Shown: one piece after another, positions 2,077 through 12,089 of the stretch
Position numbering within the stretch: position 1 is the first letter of the stretch
Layout of the letters: each line of letters starts with the position of its first letter
Assembly: GCA_028278525.1 (NCBI GenBank)
Contig: JANQEE010000011.1
Coordinates: forward strand, 124,001-188,000
Direction of reading: 5' to 3'
Origin: Minwuiaceae bacterium
Lineage (GTDB): Bacteria; Pseudomonadota; Alphaproteobacteria; Minwuiales; Minwuiaceae
Length of the DNA: 64,000 nt
Program-made: the position numbers and the translations under genes
The notes under the pieces: generated by a model
Told to the model about the DNA's origin: nothing
What the model saw: the letters and a program-made list of their open reading frames with translations, nothing else
The model's database searches: none

Positions 2077-2790
2077 ATGAAACCGACAGTAGTGTCCCGA
2101 GATCAATGGCTGACGGCCCGCAAGGCGCTGTTGCGGCAGGAGCGCGAAGCGACGCACCTGCGTGACAAGGTCAACGCCGCCCGCCGCGCGCTGCCCTGGG
2201 TCAAGGTCGAGAAAACCTATAGTTTCGAGTCCGCCGACGGGCCGAAGTCGCTCGCCGACCTGTTCCAGGGCCGCAGCCAGCTTTTCGTGCAGCATTTCAT
2301 GCTGGCGCCCGGCAGCGACCATATCTGTGAGGGCTGCGCCGGCATGGCCGACAGCGTGGATACCGCCCGTCGCCATTTCGAAAACGCCGATCTCTCGTTC
2401 GCCGCGGTCTCGCGCGCGACGGTCCAGGATATCGAGAAGGCGAAGGCGCGGTTGGGCTGGACCTTTCAATGGGTGTCCTCCGGCGCCAACAGCTTCAACG
2501 CCGACTACGGCGTGGCCTTCACCCGCGACCAGATCGACCGCGGCGAGGCCGACTACAACTACGGCACCACGCCCTACGCGGCGGAGGACCTGCCGGGGAT
2601 CAGCGTTTTCGCGATGAACGACGCCGGCGCGGTATTCCATACCTACTCCGCCTACACTCGCGGCTTCGAGGCGGTGTTCGCGCCGTTCAACTTCCTCGAC
2701 TTCGCCCCGAAAGGACGCAACGAGGACGGCACCATGAGCTGGGTCCGTTTGCACGACGAATACGAAACCGCCGGTCCCGCGCCGGCCTGA
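2077..2790 (+). CDS. DUF899 family thioredoxin-fold protein
   Basis: A 237-residue protein matching the DUF899 family: N-terminal helix with SRDQWLTARKALLRQEREAT, the segment LPWVKVEKTYSFES, then LADLFQGRSQLFVQHFMLAP, and GSDHICEGCAGMADSVD with a CEGC pair at the position of a thioredoxin-like redox site. Later motifs are WVSSGANSFNADYGVAF and a C-terminal WVRLHDEYE. DUF899 proteins have a thioredoxin/AhpC-like fold and are usually near regulators; no substrate is established. ATG 2077 has GGGGGA seven bases upstream. It is followed 25 bases later by a DUF1428 gene, probably co-transcribed, and is divergent from a MarR regulator. Confidence 0.88.
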   Translation: MKPTVVSRDQWLTARKALLRQEREATHLRDKVNAARRALPWVKVEKTYSFESADGPKSLADLFQGRSQLFVQHFMLAPGSDHICEGCAGMADSVDTARRHFENADLSFAAVSRATVQDIEKAKARLGWTFQWVSSGANSFNADYGVAFTRDQIDRGEADYNYGTTPYAAEDLPGISVFAMNDAGAVFHTYSAYTRGFEAVFAPFNFLDFAPKGRNEDGTMSWVRLHDEYETAGPAPA

Positions 2791-2815
2791 GCCGCACTCG
2801 AACAGGAGAAATCCC

Positions 2816-3169
2816 ATGGCTTACGTCGACGGATTTGTCGCAGCGGTGCCCACCGCCAACCGCGATGCGTTCATTGAACACGCGACGATAGCGGCGGAAG
2901 TGATGAAGGAATGCGGCGCGATCCGGACTGTCGATTGCTGGGGCGACGACGTGCCGGACGGCGAGGTCACGTCCTTTCCCATGGCCGTGCAGAAGAAGGA
3001 CGACGAGACGGTCGTCTTCTCGTGGATCGTGTGGCCCTCGAAGGAAGTCCGCGACGCCGGCATGAAAAAGATGATGGAACATCCGCGCATGCAGCCGGAC
3101 GTCCATCCGATGCCGTTCGACGGGAAACGCGTCATCTTTGGCGGTTTCGAAATCATCTCGGAGGGCTGA
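2816..3169 (+). CDS. DUF1428 (YbaA-like) family protein
   Basis: A 117-residue single-domain protein with the DUF1428 pattern: MAYVDGFVAAVPTANRDAF, ECGAIRTVDCWGDDVPDGEV, then FPMAVQKKDDETVVFSWIVW and a C-terminal MPFDGKRVIFGGFEII. The family has a ferredoxin-like (dimeric alpha-beta barrel) fold and no settled reaction; E. coli YbaA is the usual reference. An AGGAGA ribosome-binding site lies nine bases before ATG 2816. It sits 25 bases after the DUF899 gene and likely shares its transcript and MarR control. The full family length is present. Confidence 0.88.
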   Translation: MAYVDGFVAAVPTANRDAFIEHATIAAEVMKECGAIRTVDCWGDDVPDGEVTSFPMAVQKKDDETVVFSWIVWPSKEVRDAGMKKMMEHPRMQPDVHPMPFDGKRVIFGGFEIISEG

Positions 3170-3521
3170 TCCGCCGGAGGCCGCCGCCGAAACGCGGATT
3201 CCACTTGCCCGCCCACCCGCTTTTCGACTATCAGAACGAATTCACGGAGCGCTGTCGGAGCCCCCTTTTGCCTTCATAACCGCCGGTCTCACCAGTTTCC
3301 TCGCGTAAGCACGGCTGAGCCGCTCTCGGCGCTGTCGTTCGTTTGTATGCGTTCGTCGAGGTGGCGGTATGAGGCCGGTTTGGCATGTCTGGCCTATGGC
3401 CTCGCACCGCAGCGCTCGGCTTCCGAGCTCCTTCGCCTTTCTATCCCTGCCATACCGCACCGAGTGATCGGGCCTTCAAACCGTCGTCCTGGCGAACTTC
3501 CGACAGGAAGGTCAAGACAGG
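3170..3521 (+). other. Intergenic stretch without a supported gene
   Basis: About 350 bases between the DUF1428 and DUF1062 genes. Short open frames exist here on both strands, but none has a recognisable domain or a good ribosome-binding site. I see no clear terminator, tRNA or repeat. It probably holds the promoter of the DUF1062 gene, which I could not place. Confidence 0.5.
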
Positions 3522-4154
3522 ATGGTCGGCACTCTTTATGTGCGATGGACCGTCGTTCCGACGGTCGCCCCCCAACCGCTGCTCGCCTGCGCGCGTTGCG
3601 GCGATGTCACCCCGTTCCGCAGCAGCGGTAAGGTCCGCCTAAATGCCCAGGGCAAGCGAATGGACGCCTGGCTGGTCTACGGTTGCACCGTCTGCGGCAA
3701 GACCTGGAACCGGCCGATCCTGGAACGTCGCCGCGTTCGCGACGTCGAGCCTGATCTGCTTCATGCCCTCCAGGCCAACGAGGCCGGTCGGGTGCGGGCG
3801 CTGGCGTTCGACGTGCACGCCCTGCGCCGGCACGCGCGGCGTTTGAGGGAGTCCACCGATGTAGAGGTACGGAAGCAGGCGTTGTCGGCCGACCCGCGCC
3901 CCTGGTCGGATTTGAGAATAGCGTTCGACGTCCCGTTCCCGCTTCCGGCGCGAATGGATCGTTTGCTTGCCGTGACGCTCAATCTGTCGCGCGCCCGTAT
4001 CCAAAAGCTGGAGACGAGCGGACGCCTGCGCCTCTTGCCGCAAACACGTCGCGGGCTTCGGCAACCGGTAGCCGATCGACTGCGGGTCAGCATCGATCTG
4101 CTGGGTCTGAGCGATGGTCAGGATCTGGCGGACGTTGCCTCTCGGGACGGGTGA
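3522..4154 (+). CDS. DUF1062 domain-containing protein
   Basis: A 210-residue cytosolic protein. It begins with a zinc-ribbon-like pair, CARCGDVTPF near residue 23 and GCTVCGKTWNRPILER near residue 54, which is the hallmark of DUF1062. The middle (FDVHALRRHARRL) and the C-terminal part, rich in Arg and with RMDRLLAVTLNLSRARIQKLETSGRLRL, resemble an S4-like or helix-turn-helix RNA/DNA-binding segment. The function of DUF1062 is not known; a nucleic-acid-binding role is inference from the zinc ribbon and basic tail. It converges with the GFA gene 15 bases downstream. Confidence 0.8.
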   Translation: MVGTLYVRWTVVPTVAPQPLLACARCGDVTPFRSSGKVRLNAQGKRMDAWLVYGCTVCGKTWNRPILERRRVRDVEPDLLHALQANEAGRVRALAFDVHALRRHARRLRESTDVEVRKQALSADPRPWSDLRIAFDVPFPLPARMDRLLAVTLNLSRARIQKLETSGRLRLLPQTRRGLRQPVADRLRVSIDLLGLSDGQDLADVASRDG

Positions 4155-4169
4155 TGATGTGGACAGGCG

Positions 4170-4652
4170 CTAGTCCCGAAGCGCCCGCAACCGCTCCCGG
4201 CTCTCGGCCGGCCAGTATGCCTTCCGGTCGTAATACTCGGCCACGGCCGGAACGTCCGGCGGCAGAACCAGCCAGGGCTGCTTCGACGCCGTGAAGATGT
4301 GGATGTCCGGCGGCAGCCGGTCGGGTTCGTCCAGGGTGCCGGTGCGGACGAAGCAAATCTTGTCGCCGGCCGCCATGGCGTAGTGGCTCCATACGGCGAT
4401 CCGGCAGGCCGGGCAGCGGACGATCCTCTGTCCGCGGCCGCTGTTCGACGGTGTGTCGACCACCGCCGGGTCGCCCTGCAATACGATAACGCGGTCTCGT
4501 TCGATCATTGCGTTCAGCGCGAACGACCCGCCGGTCTCGCGCTGGCACCAACGGCAATGGCAGCAATGCACGAACATCGGGGCGCTCGTCAGCCGGTAGC
4601 GGACGGCGCCGCAGACGCAGCCGCCCTCGAATGTCTGGTCCTTGTCGCTCAT
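4170..4652 (-). CDS. GFA (glutathione-dependent formaldehyde-activating/CENP-V) family zinc protein
   Basis: A 160-residue protein with the GFA zinc-site pattern in order: GGCVCGAVRY, CHCRWCQRETGG, and RCPACRIAVWSHY. These seven cysteines bind two zinc ions in the family. Family members include Paracoccus Gfa, but most paralogues have no shown reaction, so formaldehyde-glutathione activity is not implied. ATG 4652 is preferred over an upstream in-frame start at 4691 because AAGGGAG lies six bases before it on the minus strand. It stands alone, convergent with DUF1062. Confidence 0.85.
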   Translation of the reverse strand: MSDKDQTFEGGCVCGAVRYRLTSAPMFVHCCHCRWCQRETGGSFALNAMIERDRVIVLQGDPAVVDTPSNSGRGQRIVRCPACRIAVWSHYAMAAGDKICFVRTGTLDEPDRLPPDIHIFTASKQPWLVLPPDVPAVAEYYDRKAYWPAESRERLRALRD

Positions 4653-4827
4653 GTCGCGCTCCCTTTTGGGTGGCTGTCTCTCCAGCGCCAATTTGGTGAT
4701 GAGGTAGGTTGGGCGCCAGTACAGAAATTGAACCTTTTCGCCGGTTAAGAAGGCGGTCGAAACCGGCCATGCGGTCTTCGCAGTATAGACGACGTCATGC
4801 CCTAAGGCGTGTCGGTATAAAAACTAG

Positions 4828-4856
4828 TGGACAAACTAGATCGATCTACATATTTT
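4828..4856 (+). promoter_or_regulatory. Predicted sigma70 promoter with TetR-type operator for the 4.9-9.6 kb operon
   Basis: TGGACA at 4828-4833 (five of six to TTGACA) is followed after 17 bases by TATTTT at 4851-4856. Between them lies a perfect 12-bp palindrome TAGATCGATCTA (4837-4848), and CTAGT-N6-ACTAG (4824-4839) overlaps the -35. A palindrome inside the promoter spacer is a classical repressor site. The TetR gene at the end of this operon (9005-9586) is the obvious candidate ligand-responsive repressor. The surrounding 100 bases are AT-rich compared with the flanking genes. Confidence 0.6.
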
Positions 4857-4894
4857 AATAACTACATTAGTGAAGTTTATATCAAGGAATGGCG

Positions 4895-5269
4895 ATGCCG
4901 GGTCGAAAACGAGTCGAGGAATTCATCGCCGCCGTTGTCGGCGGCGATCATGTGCAGGCAATCGCGGATTTCTATCACGAAGACGCGTCGATGCAGGAAA
5001 ACAGCGAAGCGCCCCGGGTGGGGCGGGATCTGCTGTTGAAGCATGAGAGGAACGCCCTTCGCCGTGTGCAGGCGATCGAGACCAGGCCGGTCAAGACGTT
5101 CCTTGTGGACGACGAAGTCGTCGTCGTGCATTGGGTGTTCGTGGCGACGGACCGGACGGGCGTGAAACGGCGTCTGGAGGAACTGGCCCTGCAGCGCTGG
5201 CGCGGCGACCGCATCCAGGAAGAGCGCTTTTTCTACGATACGGCGCTTGCCTGGCAGGCCATCGAATGA
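4895..5269 (+). CDS. SnoaL-like / NTF2-fold protein
   Basis: A 124-residue protein of the NTF2-like superfamily: GRKRVEEFIAAVVGGDHVQAIADFYHEDASMQENSEAPRVGRDLLL-type N-terminal helix and strand pattern (written here in part only: FYHEDASMQEN, then LVDDEVVVVHWVFVATD), ending in LALQRWRGDRIQEERFFYD. SnoaL-like domains serve as small-molecule isomerases or hydrolases or as non-catalytic binding domains; catalytic residues are not diagnostic here. ATG 4895 is preferred over ATG 4889 because AAGGA lies six bases upstream of it. It is the first gene of the operon running to 9586, under the promoter at 4828-4856. Confidence 0.75.
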   Translation: MPGRKRVEEFIAAVVGGDHVQAIADFYHEDASMQENSEAPRVGRDLLLKHERNALRRVQAIETRPVKTFLVDDEVVVVHWVFVATDRTGVKRRLEELALQRWRGDRIQEERFFYDTALAWQAIE

Positions 5270-5327
5270 GCGCTTCACTGCAACAGGCGGCGTTCTCAAT
5301 GATGCCGGCCGGTTTCGGGAGATCGGC

Positions 5328-6113
5328 ATGCAGCTAGGGCTCCGCGACCGCGTCGCCATGATTTCCGGCGGCACCAAAGGCATCGGGCTGGCGATTGCCC
5401 GCGCTCTGGCCGCTGAGGGAATGCGCTTGTCGATTTGCGCGAGGAACGAACAAGAACTCGCGGCGACGGCCGTCGCTCTGACGGAGGAGTTCGGCGTCGA
5501 CTGTCTTTCCCATGCCGGCGACCTAAGCGACGAGCGGGCGATTGACGAATGGGTGCGCACTACTGTCGAGACATGCGGCGGCATCGATCTGCTGGTCAAC
5601 AACGCAGGGTCCGCGCCGCCTGGCTCGTTTCTCAAGCAAACCAGCGATGTCTGGCGCGACGCCTTCGAAATCAAGCCGTTCGGCTACATTCGTGCCGCCC
5701 GCGCCGCCTGTCCGCACCTGATGTCGCGCAAGGGATGCATCGTCAATGTCATCGGCCTCGCCGGTCACCAACCGTTGCCGAATTTTATGATCGGCGGGGC
5801 GGGGGATGCCGTGTTGATGAACTTCACCAAAGGTCTGGCCGACGAAATGGCAGGGCAGGGCGTGCGCGTGAACGCAGTCAGCCCGGGTTTCACCAGAACG
5901 GAAAGGTGGGATGTGATCGTCAGGGGAAGTGGGGCGATGATGGGCGTCGCGCCGGAGGCGGCCGAGCGCACGCTTCTGGCGACCATGCCGCTCGGCCGAC
6001 CGGCGGAACCGGCGGAGGTCGCCAACGTCGTTGTCTTTCTCGCCTCTTCGGCGTCCAGCTACATCACCGGCGTTACGATTCCGGTCGATGGCGGCGCGAC
6101 GCGGAGCATTTAG
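5328..6113 (+). CDS. SDR-family oxidoreductase with a non-canonical active site
   Basis: A 261-residue Rossmann-fold short-chain dehydrogenase/reductase. The cofactor motif SGGTKGIGLAIARALA is near the N-terminus, followed by GDLSDE, LLVNNAGSAPPG and the C-terminal PGFTRTERWD...GVTIPVDGGATRSI. The region that normally holds Ser and Tyr-x3-Lys reads IVNVIGLAGHQPLPNFMIGG then AGDAVLMNFTKGLADE: Gly replaces the Ser, and no Tyr-x3-Lys is present. It may use other residues or bind substrate without classical hydride chemistry. ATG 5328 has GGGAG six bases upstream. It lies 58 bases after the SnoaL-like gene, in the same operon. Confidence 0.85.
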   Translation: MQLGLRDRVAMISGGTKGIGLAIARALAAEGMRLSICARNEQELAATAVALTEEFGVDCLSHAGDLSDERAIDEWVRTTVETCGGIDLLVNNAGSAPPGSFLKQTSDVWRDAFEIKPFGYIRAARAACPHLMSRKGCIVNVIGLAGHQPLPNFMIGGAGDAVLMNFTKGLADEMAGQGVRVNAVSPGFTRTERWDVIVRGSGAMMGVAPEAAERTLLATMPLGRPAEPAEVANVVVFLASSASSYITGVTIPVDGGATRSI

Positions 6114-6166
6114 TATGCACCGCTCGATGCCGCCTCTGCGCCGGTACGGCCGGGCCCGGTGAAGCG

Positions 6167-7087
6167 ATGGCGGACTACACGGTCGCGGAGATCTGGCGCT
6201 ACCCGGTCAAGTCGATGCAGGGCGAACGGCTCGCGGAGGCGGATGTTACGTCGAGCGGCATCCGTCACGATCGAAGCTGGGCCGTTCGCGATGAGAAGAC
6301 CAGGACCATTCGCGGCGCCAAGCATTTTTCGGGTCTTTTGAACTGCCATGCGCGCCTTCTCGACGGCGCCGGCATCGGCGGCGTTCCCCATGTCGAAATC
6401 ACCCTGCCGAACGGGGAGCGCACCAACTCTAAGGAGCCATACGTGCATGAAGCACTGTCCGACATCGTCGGCCGCGCGGTTACGCTATGGCCTCTCCTAC
6501 CGGCGGAGGCCGCGCGGCACTATGCCCTGAACGCCGCCGGCGGGGATGGCGGCATGGCGGAATGGCGCCGCACTTTTGGCCTGGAGGACGGCGAACCCTT
6601 TCCCGACATGTCCGGCTTTCCGAAGGAGATGCTGGCAGAATTCATGGCCTATGCGACGCCGCGCGGCACCTACTTCGACGCCTATCCGATCGACATTCTG
6701 ACCGAAGCGTCGCTACGCAGGCTGGCGGCCCTTTGCCCCGGCGCGGACCTGGATGTCAGGCGGTTCCGGCCGAACATTCTGCTCGCGGATAGCGAAGCTC
6801 GTGCCGACTTCGCGGAAGTCGAATGGGTCGGGCGACAGGTCGCGGTCGGCAGCGTCGAACTCGACGTTGTGGTCGATGCCGTGCGCTGCGTGATGGTGAC
6901 CTGTGCGCAGCCGGGGCTACCGCGGGACACGACGATCATGCGAACGCTGGTCAGGGAAACCAAACAGCGCCTCAGCGTTTACGCCGACGTGGTTTCGCCC
7001 GGCATGATCCGCTGCGGCGATCCCGTTCGATTGCCAGAATTCATGCATGGCCGAAACAATTCTCGAGGAGCCGGCGGTGATGGATAA
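6167..7087 (+). CDS. MOSC domain protein with N-terminal MOSC_N barrel
   Basis: A 306-residue protein. The N-terminus (YTVAEIWRYPVKSMQGERLA, then SSGIRHDRSWAVRD) is the MOSC_N beta-barrel; the C-terminal half has RRFRPNILLAD, VVDAVRCVMVTCAQPG and VVSPGMIRCGDPVRLPEF, the MOSC core with its conserved cysteine. MOSC domains occur in molybdenum-cofactor sulfurases and in mARC/YcbX/YiiM enzymes that reduce N-hydroxylated compounds such as hydroxylaminopurine. No ferredoxin domain is attached, unlike YcbX, so an external electron donor would be needed; the FMN reductase of this operon is a possible partner (inference). ATG 6167 chosen; the longer open frame upstream overlaps the SDR gene. Its end overlaps the next start by 8 bases. 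Confidence 0.85.
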   Translation: MADYTVAEIWRYPVKSMQGERLAEADVTSSGIRHDRSWAVRDEKTRTIRGAKHFSGLLNCHARLLDGAGIGGVPHVEITLPNGERTNSKEPYVHEALSDIVGRAVTLWPLLPAEAARHYALNAAGGDGGMAEWRRTFGLEDGEPFPDMSGFPKEMLAEFMAYATPRGTYFDAYPIDILTEASLRRLAALCPGADLDVRRFRPNILLADSEARADFAEVEWVGRQVAVGSVELDVVVDAVRCVMVTCAQPGLPRDTTIMRTLVRETKQRLSVYADVVSPGMIRCGDPVRLPEFMHGRNNSRGAGGDG

Positions 7088-7715
7088 ACGCAACGTCGTC
7101 GACATACCGGCACAGTCGGGAATGGCTGTTCGGGTTCGCGCCGGCCAGATCATCAGCCTGGTCGACGTTGAGGGCGAACAGGTGGCGGATGTTTTCGCCT
7201 GTTCCGCGGCCCGGCGCGACGAATGGCTCAGCGCCGGTCACACCAGAACGCGAACGCGCCGGCTGTTCCCGCGGGTCGGAGACGCGTTTTACACGCGGTT
7301 CTATCGTCCGATCCTTACCTTCGTCGACGATACGTCGCCGGGCGCGCACGACATGCTCTATCCGTCCTGCGAACCCGCCATGTACCGCCGGATGGGCGCA
7401 GACGAGAATCATCCGAACTGCCGGGACAACTTCATGCGGGCGGCAAAGGCGGTGGATTGGGCGCCTGAGGTGATTCCCGATCCGGTGAACTTCTTCCAGA
7501 ACACGCCTGTCAACGCGGCCGGCGAACTGGAGGTGAAGACCGCCCTGTCGAAGCCCGGAGACTTGGTGACCTTAAGGGCGGAAATGGACCTGGTGTTCGT
7601 GGCAACCGCCTGCGCCCAGGATCTGGCGCCGATCAACGGCGCGCGATGCACCGGATTGCGCCTCGAAATCGGCGGTCCGGGCGACCTTGGCGCCATTGGG
7701 GGAGGGCATGAATAA
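7080..7715 (+). CDS. DUF1989 (urea carboxylase-associated) family protein
   Basis: A 211-residue protein matching DUF1989: VVDIPAQSGMAVRVRAGQII, LVDVEGEQVADVFACSA, then SAGHTRTRTRRLFPRVGDAF, the HDMLYPSCEPAMYRRMG and HPNCRDNF motifs and a Cys near the C-terminus (ATACAQDLAPIN, Asn-Gly turn). The family is found beside urea carboxylase and other amide or amine catabolic genes; the conserved Cys and His residues suggest a metal or thiol active site but no reaction is agreed. ATG 7080 has GAGGAG nine bases upstream; ATG 7047 has none. It overlaps the MOSC stop and the next start by 8 bases each, indicating translational coupling. Confidence 0.85.
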   Translation: MDKRNVVDIPAQSGMAVRVRAGQIISLVDVEGEQVADVFACSAARRDEWLSAGHTRTRTRRLFPRVGDAFYTRFYRPILTFVDDTSPGAHDMLYPSCEPAMYRRMGADENHPNCRDNFMRAAKAVDWAPEVIPDPVNFFQNTPVNAAGELEVKTALSKPGDLVTLRAEMDLVFVATACAQDLAPINGARCTGLRLEIGGPGDLGAIGGGHE

Positions 7716-8223
7716 ACGGCGTTTGTTCCCACGCTCGTTCGACATTCCCGGCACCTGTTGGCGGGATGATTTCTCCATTCGTCCGCTTCGTATGGAAGAC
7801 GTGGTCCGGGATTTCACCTGCTATATGAGTTGCGTCGATTACTTGCGCACCGGCGGTTTCATACAGCCACCCGACATGCCATTCGTGGACTTTCCCAGGC
7901 ACGATATGTCATTGCGCTCGGCCCTGGTTCTTCTCGGGGTCGCGGAGCACGAAATGTGGCTTGGCCGCCGCGTCGAGTACGGTCTTTTCAATGCGGCGGA
8001 GACCGAGGAATTCGGCTGCATCTACATCCTGCCCAGCATGAAGCGCGGTTTCGACGCCCAGGTGACGTTCTGGGTCCGCGAGGACCGCCACGTAGACCTG
8101 GATGCCGGCCTGTTCGGGTTTTTGCGGGAATGGGTGCCCGCCGCCTATCCGATGCTGCCGAGAATCCTGTTTCCCGGCCGGGAGATGGCCTGGGAAGAAT
8201 GGGCGCTGCTTGAAGACGCCTGA
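7708..8223 (+). CDS. GNAT-family-like acyltransferase
   Basis: A 171-residue protein with the pattern of a GNAT subgroup: FSIRPLRMEDVVRDFTCYMS, a middle helix ALVLLGVAEHEMWLGRRVEYG, then EEFGCIYILPSMKRGFDAQV and FWVREDRHVDLDAGLFGFLREWV. The GCIYI strand followed by a substrate/CoA segment is the usual GNAT beta-4/alpha-3 area, although a clear R/Q-x-x-G-x-G/A loop is not visible, so CoA binding is not certain. ATG 7708 has GGGGGAGG just upstream and overlaps the DUF1989 stop by 8 bases (ATGAATAA), the same overlap geometry as between the two preceding genes. Confidence 0.6.
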   Translation: MNKRRLFPRSFDIPGTCWRDDFSIRPLRMEDVVRDFTCYMSCVDYLRTGGFIQPPDMPFVDFPRHDMSLRSALVLLGVAEHEMWLGRRVEYGLFNAAETEEFGCIYILPSMKRGFDAQVTFWVREDRHVDLDAGLFGFLREWVPAAYPMLPRILFPGREMAWEEWALLEDA

Positions 8224-8256
8224 GGCGCCCGGCGTCCCGACGGAGATGACCGACAG

Positions 8257-8946
8257 ATGGAAACCTGGAATTCAGAGGGCGCGAAGAAGGTTCTGATTCT
8301 GTCGTCCTCGCCGCGTCTCGAAGGCAACTCCCGCGGTCTTGCGGTTTCGTTCGCCGCGGGCGCTCGCGAGGCGGGCCATGAGGTTGTCGTCGTCGATTTG
8401 GTCAGGCATGTCCGCCACATGCTCGGCTACTGCCGCACCTGCCGGGATGGCGACGGGGAGTGCAGCCTGGACGACGACTTCAAGCCCCTGTTCCTGCACC
8501 TCTATTTGGCTGCCGATGCCATCGTCTTTGCAACGCCGATCTGGTGGTACGGCATGTCGTCGCATATGAAGAACTTCATCGACCGCATGTCCTGTTACAT
8601 CTCGGAAAGTTCGCCGCATGGCGCCCAAGCGAAACCGCGGGTCATGGGCAAACGGGTGGCGTTGCTTCTCAGTGCGGAGGAAAGCAGTTTCGCCTCGCGG
8701 CTCGGACTCGTGAGCCAGGTGGCGGAGTTTTGCCGCCATGTCCGCTGCTCGTTTGTCGGCGTGGTTACGGGGCTCGGCAACCTGCATGGCGAGGTCGACA
8801 GGGATCCGACGAACCCGCTCGAAGAGGCGCGGCTCATGGGACAGCGGCTGTTCGACCTGGAGGACACCGACTATGAACTCGATACGCCGCGATCGGTCGT
8901 GGTGTGGCTGGACGGAAGCGGTCGGTTTCCAAGCTATTGGCGATAG
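8257..8946 (+). CDS. NADPH-dependent FMN reductase-type flavodoxin-fold oxidoreductase
   Basis: A 229-residue flavoprotein. It starts with KKVLILSSSPRLEGNSRGLA, the phosphate-binding loop for FMN, then HMLGYCRTCRDGDGECSLDD, the C-x2-C region typical of the iron-sulfur flavoprotein-like group, and AIVFATPIWWYGMSSHMKNF, the FMN isoalloxazine loop. The C-terminal ~35 residues (LDTPRSVVVWLDGSGRFPSY) are an extension beyond the core fold. It would supply reducing power from NAD(P)H, possibly to the MOSC protein encoded upstream; this link is inference. It lies 33 bases after the GNAT gene and 58 before the TetR gene. Confidence 0.85.
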   Translation: METWNSEGAKKVLILSSSPRLEGNSRGLAVSFAAGAREAGHEVVVVDLVRHVRHMLGYCRTCRDGDGECSLDDDFKPLFLHLYLAADAIVFATPIWWYGMSSHMKNFIDRMSCYISESSPHGAQAKPRVMGKRVALLLSAEESSFASRLGLVSQVAEFCRHVRCSFVGVVTGLGNLHGEVDRDPTNPLEEARLMGQRLFDLEDTDYELDTPRSVVVWLDGSGRFPSYWR

Positions 8947-9004
8947 CGGTTGGCAACTGGTGTAAACTATCCGCCATGCGCACGGTGCCTGTCAGGGTGA
9001 AAGC

Positions 9005-9586
9005 ATGAGTACGAAGGACCGGTTCCTGCAGGCGAGCGGGCAATTGTTTCGCAGTCAGGGCTATTCGGGCACGGGTCTGAAACAGATCGTATCAGCCTCC
9101 GGCGCACCCTGGGGCTCCATGTATCACTTCTTTCCCGACGGAAAGGAACAGCTTGGCGCCGAATCCGTCCGGCATGCCGGTGCGCTAGACAACGAACGGA
9201 TCCGCTCCGCGTTCGCCCGCGCCCATGACCCGGTCGCGGCGGTGCGAAACATCTTCAAGTCGGAGATGCGGCGGCTAAAGGCAAGCGACTTTGCCGACGG
9301 CTGCCCGGTCGCGACCGTCGCCACAGACATTGCCGCCACGTCGGAACGTGTGCGCCAAGCCTGCAGCGACGCCTTTTCAAGCTGGGAGGAAACGATCGCG
9401 GACGCCCTCGTTGGGCACGGCGTCGCGCGGTCGGAGGCTCTGGCCGCCGCCAGTTGTACGCTTTTGGCCCTGGAGGGTGCGACGCTGCTAAGCCGGACCC
9501 ATAAATCGACCAAGCCGATGCGCAACGCAATGGAAATGGCCGCCCGCATCGTCCAGGACGCGCTATCCGACGCGGTTGGAAAGTAG
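9005..9586 (+). CDS. TetR-family regulator (LmrA/YxaF-like)
   Basis: A 193-residue regulator. The N-terminal helix-turn-helix reads TKDRFLQASGQLFRSQGYSG, TGLKQIVSASGAPWGSMYHF, FPDGKEQLGAESV, which is the LmrA/YxaF subgroup signature (YHFFPxGKEQL). The C-terminal ligand domain contains GCPVATVATDIA and a conserved Cys-rich helix. As the last gene of the 4.9-9.6 kb operon it is likely to repress the operon through the palindrome at 4837-4848, whose TAGA-Y-C half-sites look like those I recall for this subgroup. Inducer unknown. The gene converges with the DUF457 gene. Confidence 0.88.
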   Translation: MSTKDRFLQASGQLFRSQGYSGTGLKQIVSASGAPWGSMYHFFPDGKEQLGAESVRHAGALDNERIRSAFARAHDPVAAVRNIFKSEMRRLKASDFADGCPVATVATDIAATSERVRQACSDAFSSWEETIADALVGHGVARSEALAAASCTLLALEGATLLSRTHKSTKPMRNAMEMAARIVQDALSDAVGK

Positions 9587-9606
9587 GGCCGGACCGGTAC
9601 TCAAAT

Positions 9607-9627
9607 CTGCGTCGCCTGACGCAGTTT
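9607..9627. terminator. Short hairpin between convergent genes, possible bidirectional terminator
   Basis: CTGCGTC (9607-9613) and GACGCAG (9618-9624) form a perfect 7-bp stem with a 4-base loop, followed by TTT; on the other side lies AAAT. It sits between the TetR stop (9586) and the stop of the DUF457 gene (9638). The T tract is short, so termination strength is uncertain. Confidence 0.45.
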
Positions 9628-9637
9628 GGACAGACTC

Positions 9638-10726
9638 TCAGCAGGCCCGCTGCGTGCCGCCGTCCTCGGCGACCCGCACCGGTTTGGCGAGATTTACAGC
9701 CATCAGCGCTTCGGCCGGGCGCAGGGCGGATTCGCCGGAGAGGTTGGCGAGAAGCCATTCGGTGTCGCCGTCGGTGCTGCGCACCGTTTCGCGGCGTTCC
9801 GGCGCCATGGGCGTCAGGCCGTCGGCAGTCTCTTGGGCGACGGCGAAGCGGAAGACATAGTTGGGCGTCATCCCCATGCGCAGGTCCGACACCACGACGT
9901 TGCCGTCTTCGACGTCGATGCGGAAGAAGCCGTCGCTGAACGCCGCAAGCTTGGCCAGGGCTTCCGAACCCTCCAGGCAATTCAGGCGTTCTGTGCCGCG
10001 TGGGTGGACATAGGCGGTCACCGCTTCCCGCGATCCGAACACGGGAATGTAGAGATTGATGTAGCGCTCGCCGTCCACCGCGATCGCCTTCCAGAACAAG
10101 GTGTTGAAGGGCGTCGGGCTGGCCATCAGGCGGTCCGGGACCACGCCGGCATCCGCCAACAGGCTTGCGGCCCGCGCCTTCACCACCTGCTGCGCCGCCA
10201 GGCCCCAACCCATGTAGGCGGTGGAAAGCGCCAGGGCCGCAACGACCGACAGGCCGAAGCGCCTCGACCAGGTTCCCTTGACGAAGGCCCAGACGACCAC
10301 GAACAGCAGCGGCAGCGAATAGAGCGGATCGATGATGAAGACCGAGCCCGTCCCCACCGGATCGCGGATCAGGGGCCAGAACACCCGGGTACCGTAGATC
10401 GTCAGCGCGTCGATCACCGCATGGGTCGCGAAAATCAGATAGACGGCAAGGTATGTCCGCAGGCGCTGGTCGCGCAGCCCTTTGAACAGCCGCACCACCG
10501 CCTCACCGACAAGCGGGGCCGCCAGGGCCTGCACGAAAAAGGAGTGGCTGGGCCCACGATGAAGGGTGAAGGAATCGATCGGGTCATCGAAAGGAAAAAG
10601 CACGTCGAGGTCCGGCAGGGTGCCCAGCAGGCCGCCGGCGATAGCGGCTTTGCGCGGTCCGATCCGGGGGCCCAGGGTGGCTGCACCGACGGCGGCGCCA
10701 AGAACAAACTGCGTTACTGAATCCAT
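9638..10726 (-). CDS. DUF457 / YdjM-type membrane-bound metal-dependent hydrolase
   Basis: A 362-residue membrane protein. Its N-terminus (MDSVTQFVLGAAVGAATLGP, then GGLLGTLPDLDVLFPFDDPI and LHRGPSHSFFVQALAAPLV) carries the His/Asp pattern of the LexA-binding inner-membrane hydrolase family, with further THAVIDALTIYGTRVFWPL. About four hydrophobic segments fill residues 1-190; the remaining ~170 residues form a soluble domain without hydrophobic stretches. A catalytic role through metal binding is proposed for the family, but the substrate is unknown. ATG 10726 starts exactly at the conserved motif; the frame extends further upstream without resemblance to the family. Confidence 0.82.
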   Translation of the reverse strand: MDSVTQFVLGAAVGAATLGPRIGPRKAAIAGGLLGTLPDLDVLFPFDDPIDSFTLHRGPSHSFFVQALAAPLVGEAVVRLFKGLRDQRLRTYLAVYLIFATHAVIDALTIYGTRVFWPLIRDPVGTGSVFIIDPLYSLPLLFVVVWAFVKGTWSRRFGLSVVAALALSTAYMGWGLAAQQVVKARAASLLADAGVVPDRLMASPTPFNTLFWKAIAVDGERYINLYIPVFGSREAVTAYVHPRGTERLNCLEGSEALAKLAAFSDGFFRIDVEDGNVVVSDLRMGMTPNYVFRFAVAQETADGLTPMAPERRETVRSTDGDTEWLLANLSGESALRPAEALMAVNLAKPVRVAEDGGTQRAC

Positions 10727-10826
10727 GGCGTGCGGGGCTGCGATACCGGTTGGCGGGCGTGGTCGTTGCGGACGGCCGGGCTGGGCGACGCAACACAATA
10801 TAGGTCGGCGCAGCGTCTTGTCATGA

Positions 10827-12089
10827 TTAAGCGGCAGCCATTGAATCGATCACGGCCGCCGCGCCTGCCGCCCCCGGTTCCGCTTGCATGGCGGCGCCGA
10901 TTTCCTCGGCCCGCTTGCGGATCGACGGCGCTCGGACGGCGGCCAGCGCGCCGGCAAGCGCCTCGGCCGAGAGATGCTTCTGCGGCAGCGGCGCGGGGCC
11001 GGCGCCGACCGTCATCACGCGGCGTCCCCAGAAGGGTTGATCGCCGAAAACCGGGCAGACGATGGAAGGACGTCCCCACCTCAGGCCTTCATGGGTAGTA
11101 CCGGCGCCGCCGTGGTGGACGACCGCCGAACAGCGCGGAAACAGCCAGTCGTGCGGCGCGGTATCCAGCACGTGGATGCGGTCGGAACAGTCGACCGTTT
11201 CCAGCCCGTCCCAGCCCGTCGCCAGGATGCCGCGTTCGTCTGCGGACTGCAGGGCTTCGAGCACGATACGCGTGAGCCGCGGCGCGTCTTTCGCCGGCAT
11301 GCTGCCGAACCCGACATAAACGGGTGGCGGCCCGGCATCGAGGAACCGCATAAGCGATTCGGGCGGCTGCCAGTCGGCGGCGTTGTCGGAAAACCAGTAC
11401 CCGGTGACATGCTCCCGGCCGGTCCAATCTTCGGCCGGGGGAACCAGATGGCGGCTGAACGCGTGCAGGCGCGGCACCGCATGGCCGTCCGGAACATAGC
11501 CGTCGAACAGATCCCGCGGGCCTGTGCGGGCCAACCCCAACCGTTCGCGGCGCCACTTGTCGATCTTGCCGGAAAGCAGAAGAGATATCAGCCGCCCGAT
11601 GGCTCTATGGCTCAATGCGTTGCCGAACCGCCCCAGGTTGGCGACGGGCAGGGCAGGGCTCGGATAAGCGCCCGTCGGAACGTACGCCGGGATCAAGGCG
11701 GTCGGGACCGCGGTCGCCGACAGGGCCTCGGCGATGTGCTGGGCGGCCAGCCCCTTGGGATGGTGATAGACGATGACATCGGGTCGCAGCTCCCGCGCGA
11801 CATCCCACATCTCGTCGAGCTGCCGGCGGAACATGCCTTTCGACCGGCGCCACGCCTGGATCTTTCCGGACATCGTCCGCAGCGCTTTCTGGATCTCGGG
11901 AGTCTGCAACAACGAGCGAACGTCGTCCGATAGCGGCGCGGCGGCCAGCCCCTGCGCCTCGATCATTGCCTCGAAGCCGCGCCCGGTGGACACCGTTACC
12001 CCATGACCCCGCGCCCGTAGCGCCGCGCCCAGCGCGACGTAGGGCTGCACGTCGCCGCGCGACCCCAGTGTCAGAATCAGGATGTTCAT
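10827..12089 (-). CDS. UDP/dTDP-sugar glycosyltransferase, MGT/sterol-glucosyltransferase type (GT1)
   Basis: A 420-residue GT-B enzyme. The N-terminal domain begins MNILILTLGSRGDVQPYVAL, the glycine-rich acceptor-domain motif of GT1 enzymes; the C-terminal donor domain has PVYVGFGSMPAKD and the signature SAVVHHGGAGTTHEGLRWGR, then PSIVCPVFGDQPFWGRRV. The HHGGAGTT motif binds the sugar nucleotide. Relatives glycosylate sterols, hopanoids, macrolides or lipids; acceptor here unknown. ATG 12089 begins the conserved domain; a 54-base longer frame upstream lacks family similarity. Adjacent gene 9638-10726 is on the same strand, 100 bases downstream. Confidence 0.88.
   Translation of the reverse strand: MNILILTLGSRGDVQPYVALGAALRARGHGVTVSTGRGFEAMIEAQGLAAAPLSDDVRSLLQTPEIQKALRTMSGKIQAWRRSKGMFRRQLDEMWDVARELRPDVIVYHHPKGLAAQHIAEALSATAVPTALIPAYVPTGAYPSPALPVANLGRFGNALSHRAIGRLISLLLSGKIDKWRRERLGLARTGPRDLFDGYVPDGHAVPRLHAFSRHLVPPAEDWTGREHVTGYWFSDNAADWQPPESLMRFLDAGPPPVYVGFGSMPAKDAPRLTRIVLEALQSADERGILATGWDGLETVDCSDRIHVLDTAPHDWLFPRCSAVVHHGGAGTTHEGLRWGRPSIVCPVFGDQPFWGRRVMTVGAGPAPLPQKHLSAEALAGALAAVRAPSIRKRAEEIGAAMQAEPGAAGAAAVIDSMAAA

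Follow-up and report, generated by a model that had tools for sequence, protein, structure and literature searches.

What do seven genes do together when they lie head to tail in one bacterium and end in the gene for a TetR repressor? The genes (g1 to g7) span positions 4889-9586 on the plus strand of a 64,000-nucleotide stretch of DNA from a Minwuiaceae bacterium (GenBank assembly GCA_028278525.1, contig JANQEE010000011.1, positions 124,001 to 188,000; this whole stretch is called the window). They encode, in order, a SnoaL-like protein, a short-chain dehydrogenase/reductase (SDR), a MOSC protein, a DUF1989 protein, a degenerate GNAT-like protein, a flavodoxin-type FMN reductase, and a TetR repressor. 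Sequence analysis, including comparison with a second copy in a genome of another alphaproteobacterial family (G175), supported the prediction that these genes form one operon, apparently under its own TetR. We tentatively favor, with a little less than even confidence, a self-regulated and substrate-inducible operon whose enzymes would reduce and hydrolyze a nitrogen compound that is unsaturated and probably N-oxygenated.

All seven open reading frames are intact. The spacing from g1 to g7 is, in order, 58, 53, -8, -8, 33, and 58 bases, and both 8-base overlaps (g3/g4 and g4/g5) are of the ATGxATAA type. These coordinates match exactly the original prediction of seven plus-strand genes no more than 58 bases apart, with two 8-base overlaps and the TetR gene last, and Pfam searches bear out its labels of SnoaL-like, SDR, MOSC, DUF1989, FMN reductase, and TetR. 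For g4, a start at 7080 is preferred, as it has an upstream AGGAG and creates the 8-base overlap; an in-frame ATG at 7047 is the alternative. The features of the unit are as follows.

4828-4856, plus strand: predicted sigma-70-like promoter from a consensus scan (TGGACA, 17-base spacer, TATTTT).
4837-4848, no strand assigned: putative TetR operator, the 12-bp perfect palindrome TAGATCGATCTA, within the 17-base spacer of the promoter.
4889-5269, plus strand: g1, SnoaL/NTF2-like, 126 amino acids (PF12680, SnoaL_2, 4e-9; 53% identity with the G175 copy).
5328-6113, plus strand: g2, triad-less SDR, AerF/BacG/PRK06125-like, predicted NAD(P)H ene-reductase, 261 amino acids (PF13561, adh_short_C2, 2e-54).
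6167-7087, plus strand: g3, MOSC_N+MOSC protein, mARC-like, without a Fer2 domain, 306 amino acids (Pfam; Mo-ligand Cys241 retained).
7080-7715, plus strand: g4, DUF1989 protein with a zinc cysteine triad (PF09347, 1e-50; alignment to 3oru and to Tdm, 9q59).
7708-8223, plus strand: g5, degenerate GNAT-like, 171 amino acids (59-60% identity with G175; PF13302 weakly matched by 2 of 10 relatives).
8257-8946, plus strand: g6, flavodoxin-fold NAD(P)H:FMN reductase-like, 229 amino acids (PF02525, 4e-20; PF03358, 1.5e-19).
9005-9586, plus strand: g7, TetR repressor with an LmrA/YxaF-type C-terminal domain, 193 amino acids (PF21993, 7e-29; PF00440).

The complete set, with content, order, and orientation as in the window, is present in G175, the sole other genome found to carry it when g5 protein searches were made over 60 relatives, 289 genomes of the class, 398 of the phylum, 25 of G175's family, and 9 of the host order (g5 match, 59%). 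The identities between the two copies are 53% for the SnoaL-like protein, 65% for the SDR, 55% for MOSC, 55% for DUF1989, 60% for g5, 54% for the flavodoxin-type reductase, and 54% for TetR, and the G175 junctions are comparably tight, except for 331 bp between g6 and g7. We infer that selection for a joint function is the simplest explanation of gene order kept at such divergence. The expectation that the grouping would be conserved in related genomes thus held in part: within the order, class, and phylum searched it is complete in the distant G175, but it is absent from close relatives, with the operon present in 1 of the 25 genomes of G175's family and in none of the 8 other genomes of the host order. 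This rare and patchy occurrence could reflect either horizontal transfer or repeated loss. The G+C content of the operon is 63%, like that of its flanks, and the G175 copy, at 41-50%, resembles its own host. Both copies have adapted to their hosts in base composition, the operon is therefore no fresh import, and a recent mobile insert was rejected.

Several wider searches were negative for the whole set. Patterns from g5 and g2 revealed no further operon copy in genome contigs, where such short exact patterns are weak evidence of absence; viral contigs gave no match; and plasmids carried relatives of single genes only, never the whole set. The MOSC neighborhoods of six other genomes lack the rest of the set, although one has a less similar SDR adjoining, and the six nearest SDR relatives do not have the other operon genes alongside.

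The strongest single result concerns the control of the operon. The only exact 12-mer common to the regions upstream of the operon in the window and in G175 is TAGATCGATCTA. Whole-genome searches found one copy of it in the host (5.95 Mb) and two in G175 (3.94 Mb), compared with about 0.09 and 0.32 sites, respectively, expected from composition, and all three sites lie directly upstream of the operon (the G175 pair within about 305 bp). With one mismatch permitted, there was still a single site in the 64 kb, and 3 of 100 shuffles had one. The promoter scan is weak when taken alone (3 sites in the region against 1.0 expected). Because TAGATCGATCTA is confined to just upstream of the operon in both genomes, the operon's own TetR almost certainly has its operator there, and the position of the palindrome suggests that the repressor acts through it. 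This conserved and specific palindrome, unique in the host genome, bears out the palindromic operator that had been proposed at the promoter and is as predicted for a TetR self-regulated operon. The two G175 copies (L007:6219-6230 and 6477-6488) are 258 bp apart upstream of g1, where the window has one, and may provide tighter repression or serve two promoters. No riboswitch or other Rfam match was found at 3000-11000 (E<=1), and riboswitch control was rejected.

The g7 protein matches TetR_N with 29.4 bits and TetR_C_13_2 with 100.6 bits (gathering cut-offs, 24 and 27), which places it among LmrA/YxaF-type regulators. Its best-scoring NCBIfam relative is AcuR (61.7 of the 247 bits needed, E 6e-17), and CurR, the curcumin regulator, scores lower (49.4 of 300 bits, E 4e-13), so that g7 falls below both equivalog cut-offs. 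Like Bacillus subtilis LmrA/QdoR, the TetR described here has the LmrA/YxaF-type C-terminal domain and few operators, but the LmrA/QdoR target genes are unrelated to this operon. The acuR-acuI-dddL operon of Rhodobacter sphaeroides is likewise a self-regulated TetR operon whose oxidoreductase acts on an unsaturated compound, and the AcuR operator is an inverted repeat with TAGA half-sites that overlaps its promoter, as here (PMC3017554). In that operon, however, the TetR gene is first, the half-site spacing is not the same, the AcuI oxidoreductase is of the zinc type (COG0604) with no SDR, and MOSC, DUF1989, SnoaL, and flavodoxin genes are lacking.

The g2 SDR was reported in the original prediction to lack its usual catalytic residues, and this absence was borne out. 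The classical Ser, Tyr, and Lys are all missing from g2, from its 28 nearest relatives, and from AerF and BacG, which, as 6jh7 (AerF) and 3u49 (YwfH/BacG), are its nearest solved structures. Because these proteins also lack the three residues, the loss of the triad is a trait of the clade, and the reading of g2 as an enzyme that has itself lost residues does not stand, since the same absence extends to the ene-reductase AerF. The absent triad is a clade trait compatible with ene-reduction, with no sign of decay. The position of the catalytic Lys holds Asn in the 28 relatives, AerF, and BacG, and Asp in the window and G175 copies; the Asn is to be read as a trait of the members compared and not as an established requirement. 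The triad-less clade is widespread, with SDR matches at E<=1e-50 in 45 of the 289 genomes of the class, and g2 scores 229.7 bits against PRK06125 (NF004779), under the curated cut-off of 261. AerF (aeruginosin) and YwfH/BacG (bacilysin) are thus the closest solved counterparts of an SDR without the Ser-Tyr-Lys triad, from which the operon SDRs differ in having Asp for the Asn of the clade and in being without biosynthetic partners.

The g3 protein has the MOSC_N and MOSC domains together with Cys241, which aligns to the RC motif of human mARC1, making it an mARC-like MOSC protein. The conserved MOSC cysteine of mARC1 is Cys273 (PMC10637980). A moaA gene scores above its cut-off in both the host and G175 genomes, and cofactor synthesis is therefore possible in each. 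Compared with the mARC and YcbX N-reductive systems, g3 has the same domain architecture and Mo-ligand cysteine, but it lies in a dedicated operon, where a flavodoxin-type reductase takes the place of the cytochrome b5 reductase or Fer2 domain. Among other MOSC relatives, two of 45% identity (G130:C12:389549-390409, L045; G098:C69:73321-74172, L046) were reported with a single internal stop (TGA or TAG) in the matched region; that of G098 has an open frame of 301 amino acids (L083), and the internal stop may reflect a match that runs beyond the gene end. On the conjugative plasmid 2 of Aromatoleum aromaticum (L016:7986-10317), genes for MOSC (40% identity), RidA, and an SDR lie in a row among transposases.

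DUF1989 has been characterized in carboxyguanidine deiminase and as the zinc domain of trimethylamine N-oxide (TMAO) demethylase (Tdm). The g4 protein, the only DUF1989 member in the host genome, matches PF09347 with 171.7 bits (cut-off, 27) and has the three zinc cysteines; by alignment, its Cys108, Cys125, Cys189, His122, and Asp192 (counted from the 7047 start) pair with C263, C279, C343, H276, and D346 of TMAO demethylase. It therefore shares with CgdAB and Tdm, by comparison with Tdm, a Cys-Cys-Cys zinc site with neighboring His and Asp, but it is a single stand-alone subunit. At 211-222 amino acids, g4 is DUF1989 alone with no GcvT domain and scores below the Tdm curated cut-off, unlike a TMAO demethylase. 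It also scores 112 bits against UAAP2 (cut-off, 285) and 66 bits against UAAP1 (cut-off, 206) and has no paired second subunit, unlike the carboxyguanidine deiminase proteins CgdA and CgdB, which belong to the DUF1989 family (PMC11271267). The link of DUF1989 to urea breakdown had to be abandoned, as the characterized members act otherwise and g4 scores under the curated cut-offs of both subfamilies. Relatives of g4 on plasmids of Streptomyces and Nocardia (L017:7971-12936 and L019:6585-10602) stand beside NADH:flavin oxidoreductase, polysaccharide deacetylase, and PucR genes with an amidase gene nearby, probably a separate conserved nitrogen-catabolic cluster. The DUF1989 relatives that G087 and G072 encode share only 30-32% identity with g4, and their contigs were left out of the evidence on it.

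The remaining enzyme-like products are less alike in how well they can be assigned. The g6 protein is a clear family member, with 72.9 bits for Flavodoxin_2 and 70.5 bits for FMN_red (cut-offs, 27 and 24); its Cys59, Cys62, and Cys69 are conserved in the alignment, and its nearest solved structure is 1rli. For g5, the GNAT label is weakly supported: 2 of 10 relatives match Acetyltransf_3 (PF13302, best E 5e-4) and distant relatives on plasmids carry the annotation "N-acetyltransferase," but g5 has no Pfam match of its own, the Q/RxxGxG/A acetyl-CoA motif of GNAT proteins was not seen in the alignment, and no match was found in the PDB. Its single-sequence structure prediction was too poor to use (mean predicted local distance difference test score, 37).

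The neighbors of MOSC, g6, and g4 relatives appear to point to nitrogen-compound metabolism, although this comparison had no statistical control. Relatives of g6 adjoin Rid hydrolase and TetR genes in Ensifer, have AllG and glutamine-synthetase-family genes nearby in G087, and share a short contig with an arginase-family gene in G072. By eye, several further genes on a G087 contig with a close g6 relative (G087:C53; L116, L117) resemble FAD-dependent amine dehydrogenases and one resembles a trimethylamine methyltransferase, a content that suggests methylated-amine use.

Outside the unit, the window has a divergent GFA-family gene upstream (4170-4691, minus strand) and a YdjM-like gene downstream (9638-10798, minus strand), and at 2077-3169 two adjoining plus-strand open reading frames resemble, by eye, DUF899 and DUF1428 proteins. 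In G175, an HpaB-type 4-hydroxyphenylacetate hydroxylase gene with a flavin reductase gene and a second flavin-reductase-domain gene (L007:2943-6132) lie directly upstream of the operon; these genes do not adjoin it in the window.

The pathway that we propose is built on the operon structure, its conservation, the unique operator, and the metal-site residues, with the regulation, the reactions, and their order set out as the steps that these features suggest. Without inducer, the g7 TetR would sit on the palindrome between -35 and -10, placed there by comparison of the two genomes, and block the promoter; an inducer, either the substrate or a product, would free g7 from the operator. The MOSC protein, with molybdenum cofactor on Cys241, would then reduce an N-O group with electrons supplied by the g6 flavoprotein, which is the most characteristic and the least certain step of the proposal. 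The triad-less SDR, as its clade suggests, would reduce a conjugated C=C bond with NAD(P)H in the manner of AerF, after which the zinc DUF1989 protein would cut a C-N bond, deimination being one possibility. The SnoaL-like g1 would isomerize, hydrate, or cyclize an intermediate, and g5, which has no recognizable acetyl-CoA motif, may have an accessory role or bind the substrate. Nitrogen-compound metabolism is favored because a MOSC protein with its Mo-ligand cysteine, a flavin reductase, and a metal-intact DUF1989 protein share the operon; to this extent, the guess of a detoxification or catabolic system for a nitrogen-containing compound fits.

Several findings weigh against this proposal. 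The G175 TetR gene, 331 bp from g6, may have a separate transcript, and only two operon copies (host and G175) were found. The operon encodes no transporter and no assimilatory enzyme. Other alphaproteobacteria have members of this MOSC subfamily outside the operon, and its presence alone is no proof of an N-oxygenated substrate; moreover, the known MOSC electron partners (cytochrome b5 with its reductase, and CysJ) are not of the g6 flavodoxin family. Few loci contribute to the neighborhood evidence from g6 relatives. For an N-hydroxyguanidine substrate, the idea drawn from plant canavanine and hydroxyguanidine, we found no direct support.

The main rival is an operon for electrophile, quinone, or phenolic stress, in which TetR would sense a reactive unsaturated carbonyl or plant phenolic, the SDR and flavodoxin-type reductase would quench it, and MOSC and DUF1989 would have side roles. 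The LmrA/YxaF-type C-terminal domain of g7 and its weak likeness to AcuR (acrylate) and CurR agree with this, as do the relation of g2 to the alkenal reductase AerF and the quinone and azo reductases among the g6 families. We nevertheless regard it as rather unlikely, as the similarities to AcuR and CurR are far under the curated cut-offs and the retention of MOSC and a metal-intact DUF1989 protein in both copies would be left unexplained. Polyketide pathways often include SnoaL folds, and the nearest solved SDRs come from aeruginosin and bacilysin biosynthesis, so a small natural-product tailoring cluster, in which the AerF/BacG-like SDR and the SnoaL-like protein build a non-standard amino acid or ring, was also weighed. 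Such a cluster is improbable: the seven genes include no nonribosomal peptide synthetase, polyketide synthase, ligase, cupin (BacA/B-like), or exporter, none was seen in the immediate neighbors, and the triad-less SDR clade is widespread in the class.

Two further explanations fared worse. Membership of g4 in the DUF1989 family, as for CgdA/CgdB (PMC11271267), could make it a carboxyguanidine deiminase of the guanidine (formerly urea) carboxylase pathway. This we consider very improbable and rejected on the UAAP scores, the single DUF1989 protein of the host (carboxyguanidine deiminase has two subunits), and the missing Rfam match at 3000-11000; genes for a carboxylase and an allophanate hydrolase are also both missing from the operon. 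If unrelated genes had come together by chance or through an artefact, this would account for the absence of the set from all 8 other genomes of the host order, but we give that explanation next to no credence, since it is refuted by the G175 copy, which has full synteny in a second family and the common operator.

Nearly all of the protein families of this operon are known and self-regulated TetR operons are common, but the combination is not described in the literature searched, where DUF1989 and MOSC were not found together, in agreement with the original view that the gene set was unfamiliar. To our knowledge, natural substrates are not known for most bacterial MOSC proteins, most DUF1989 proteins, or triad-less SDRs. 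The more specific proposal of a new pathway, in which a molybdenum cofactor-containing MOSC reductase fed by the flavodoxin-type reductase, the SDR ene-reductase, and the zinc DUF1989 protein act sequentially on one N-oxygenated unsaturated nitrogen compound, is one that we think unlikely; if true, it would link such bacterial MOSC proteins to a physiological substrate, reveal a new electron donor for them, and extend the chemistry of DUF1989. As MOSC, DUF1989, and the triad-less SDR are apparently placed under a single inducer and a unique operator, the identity of the inducer would reveal the substrate class directly.

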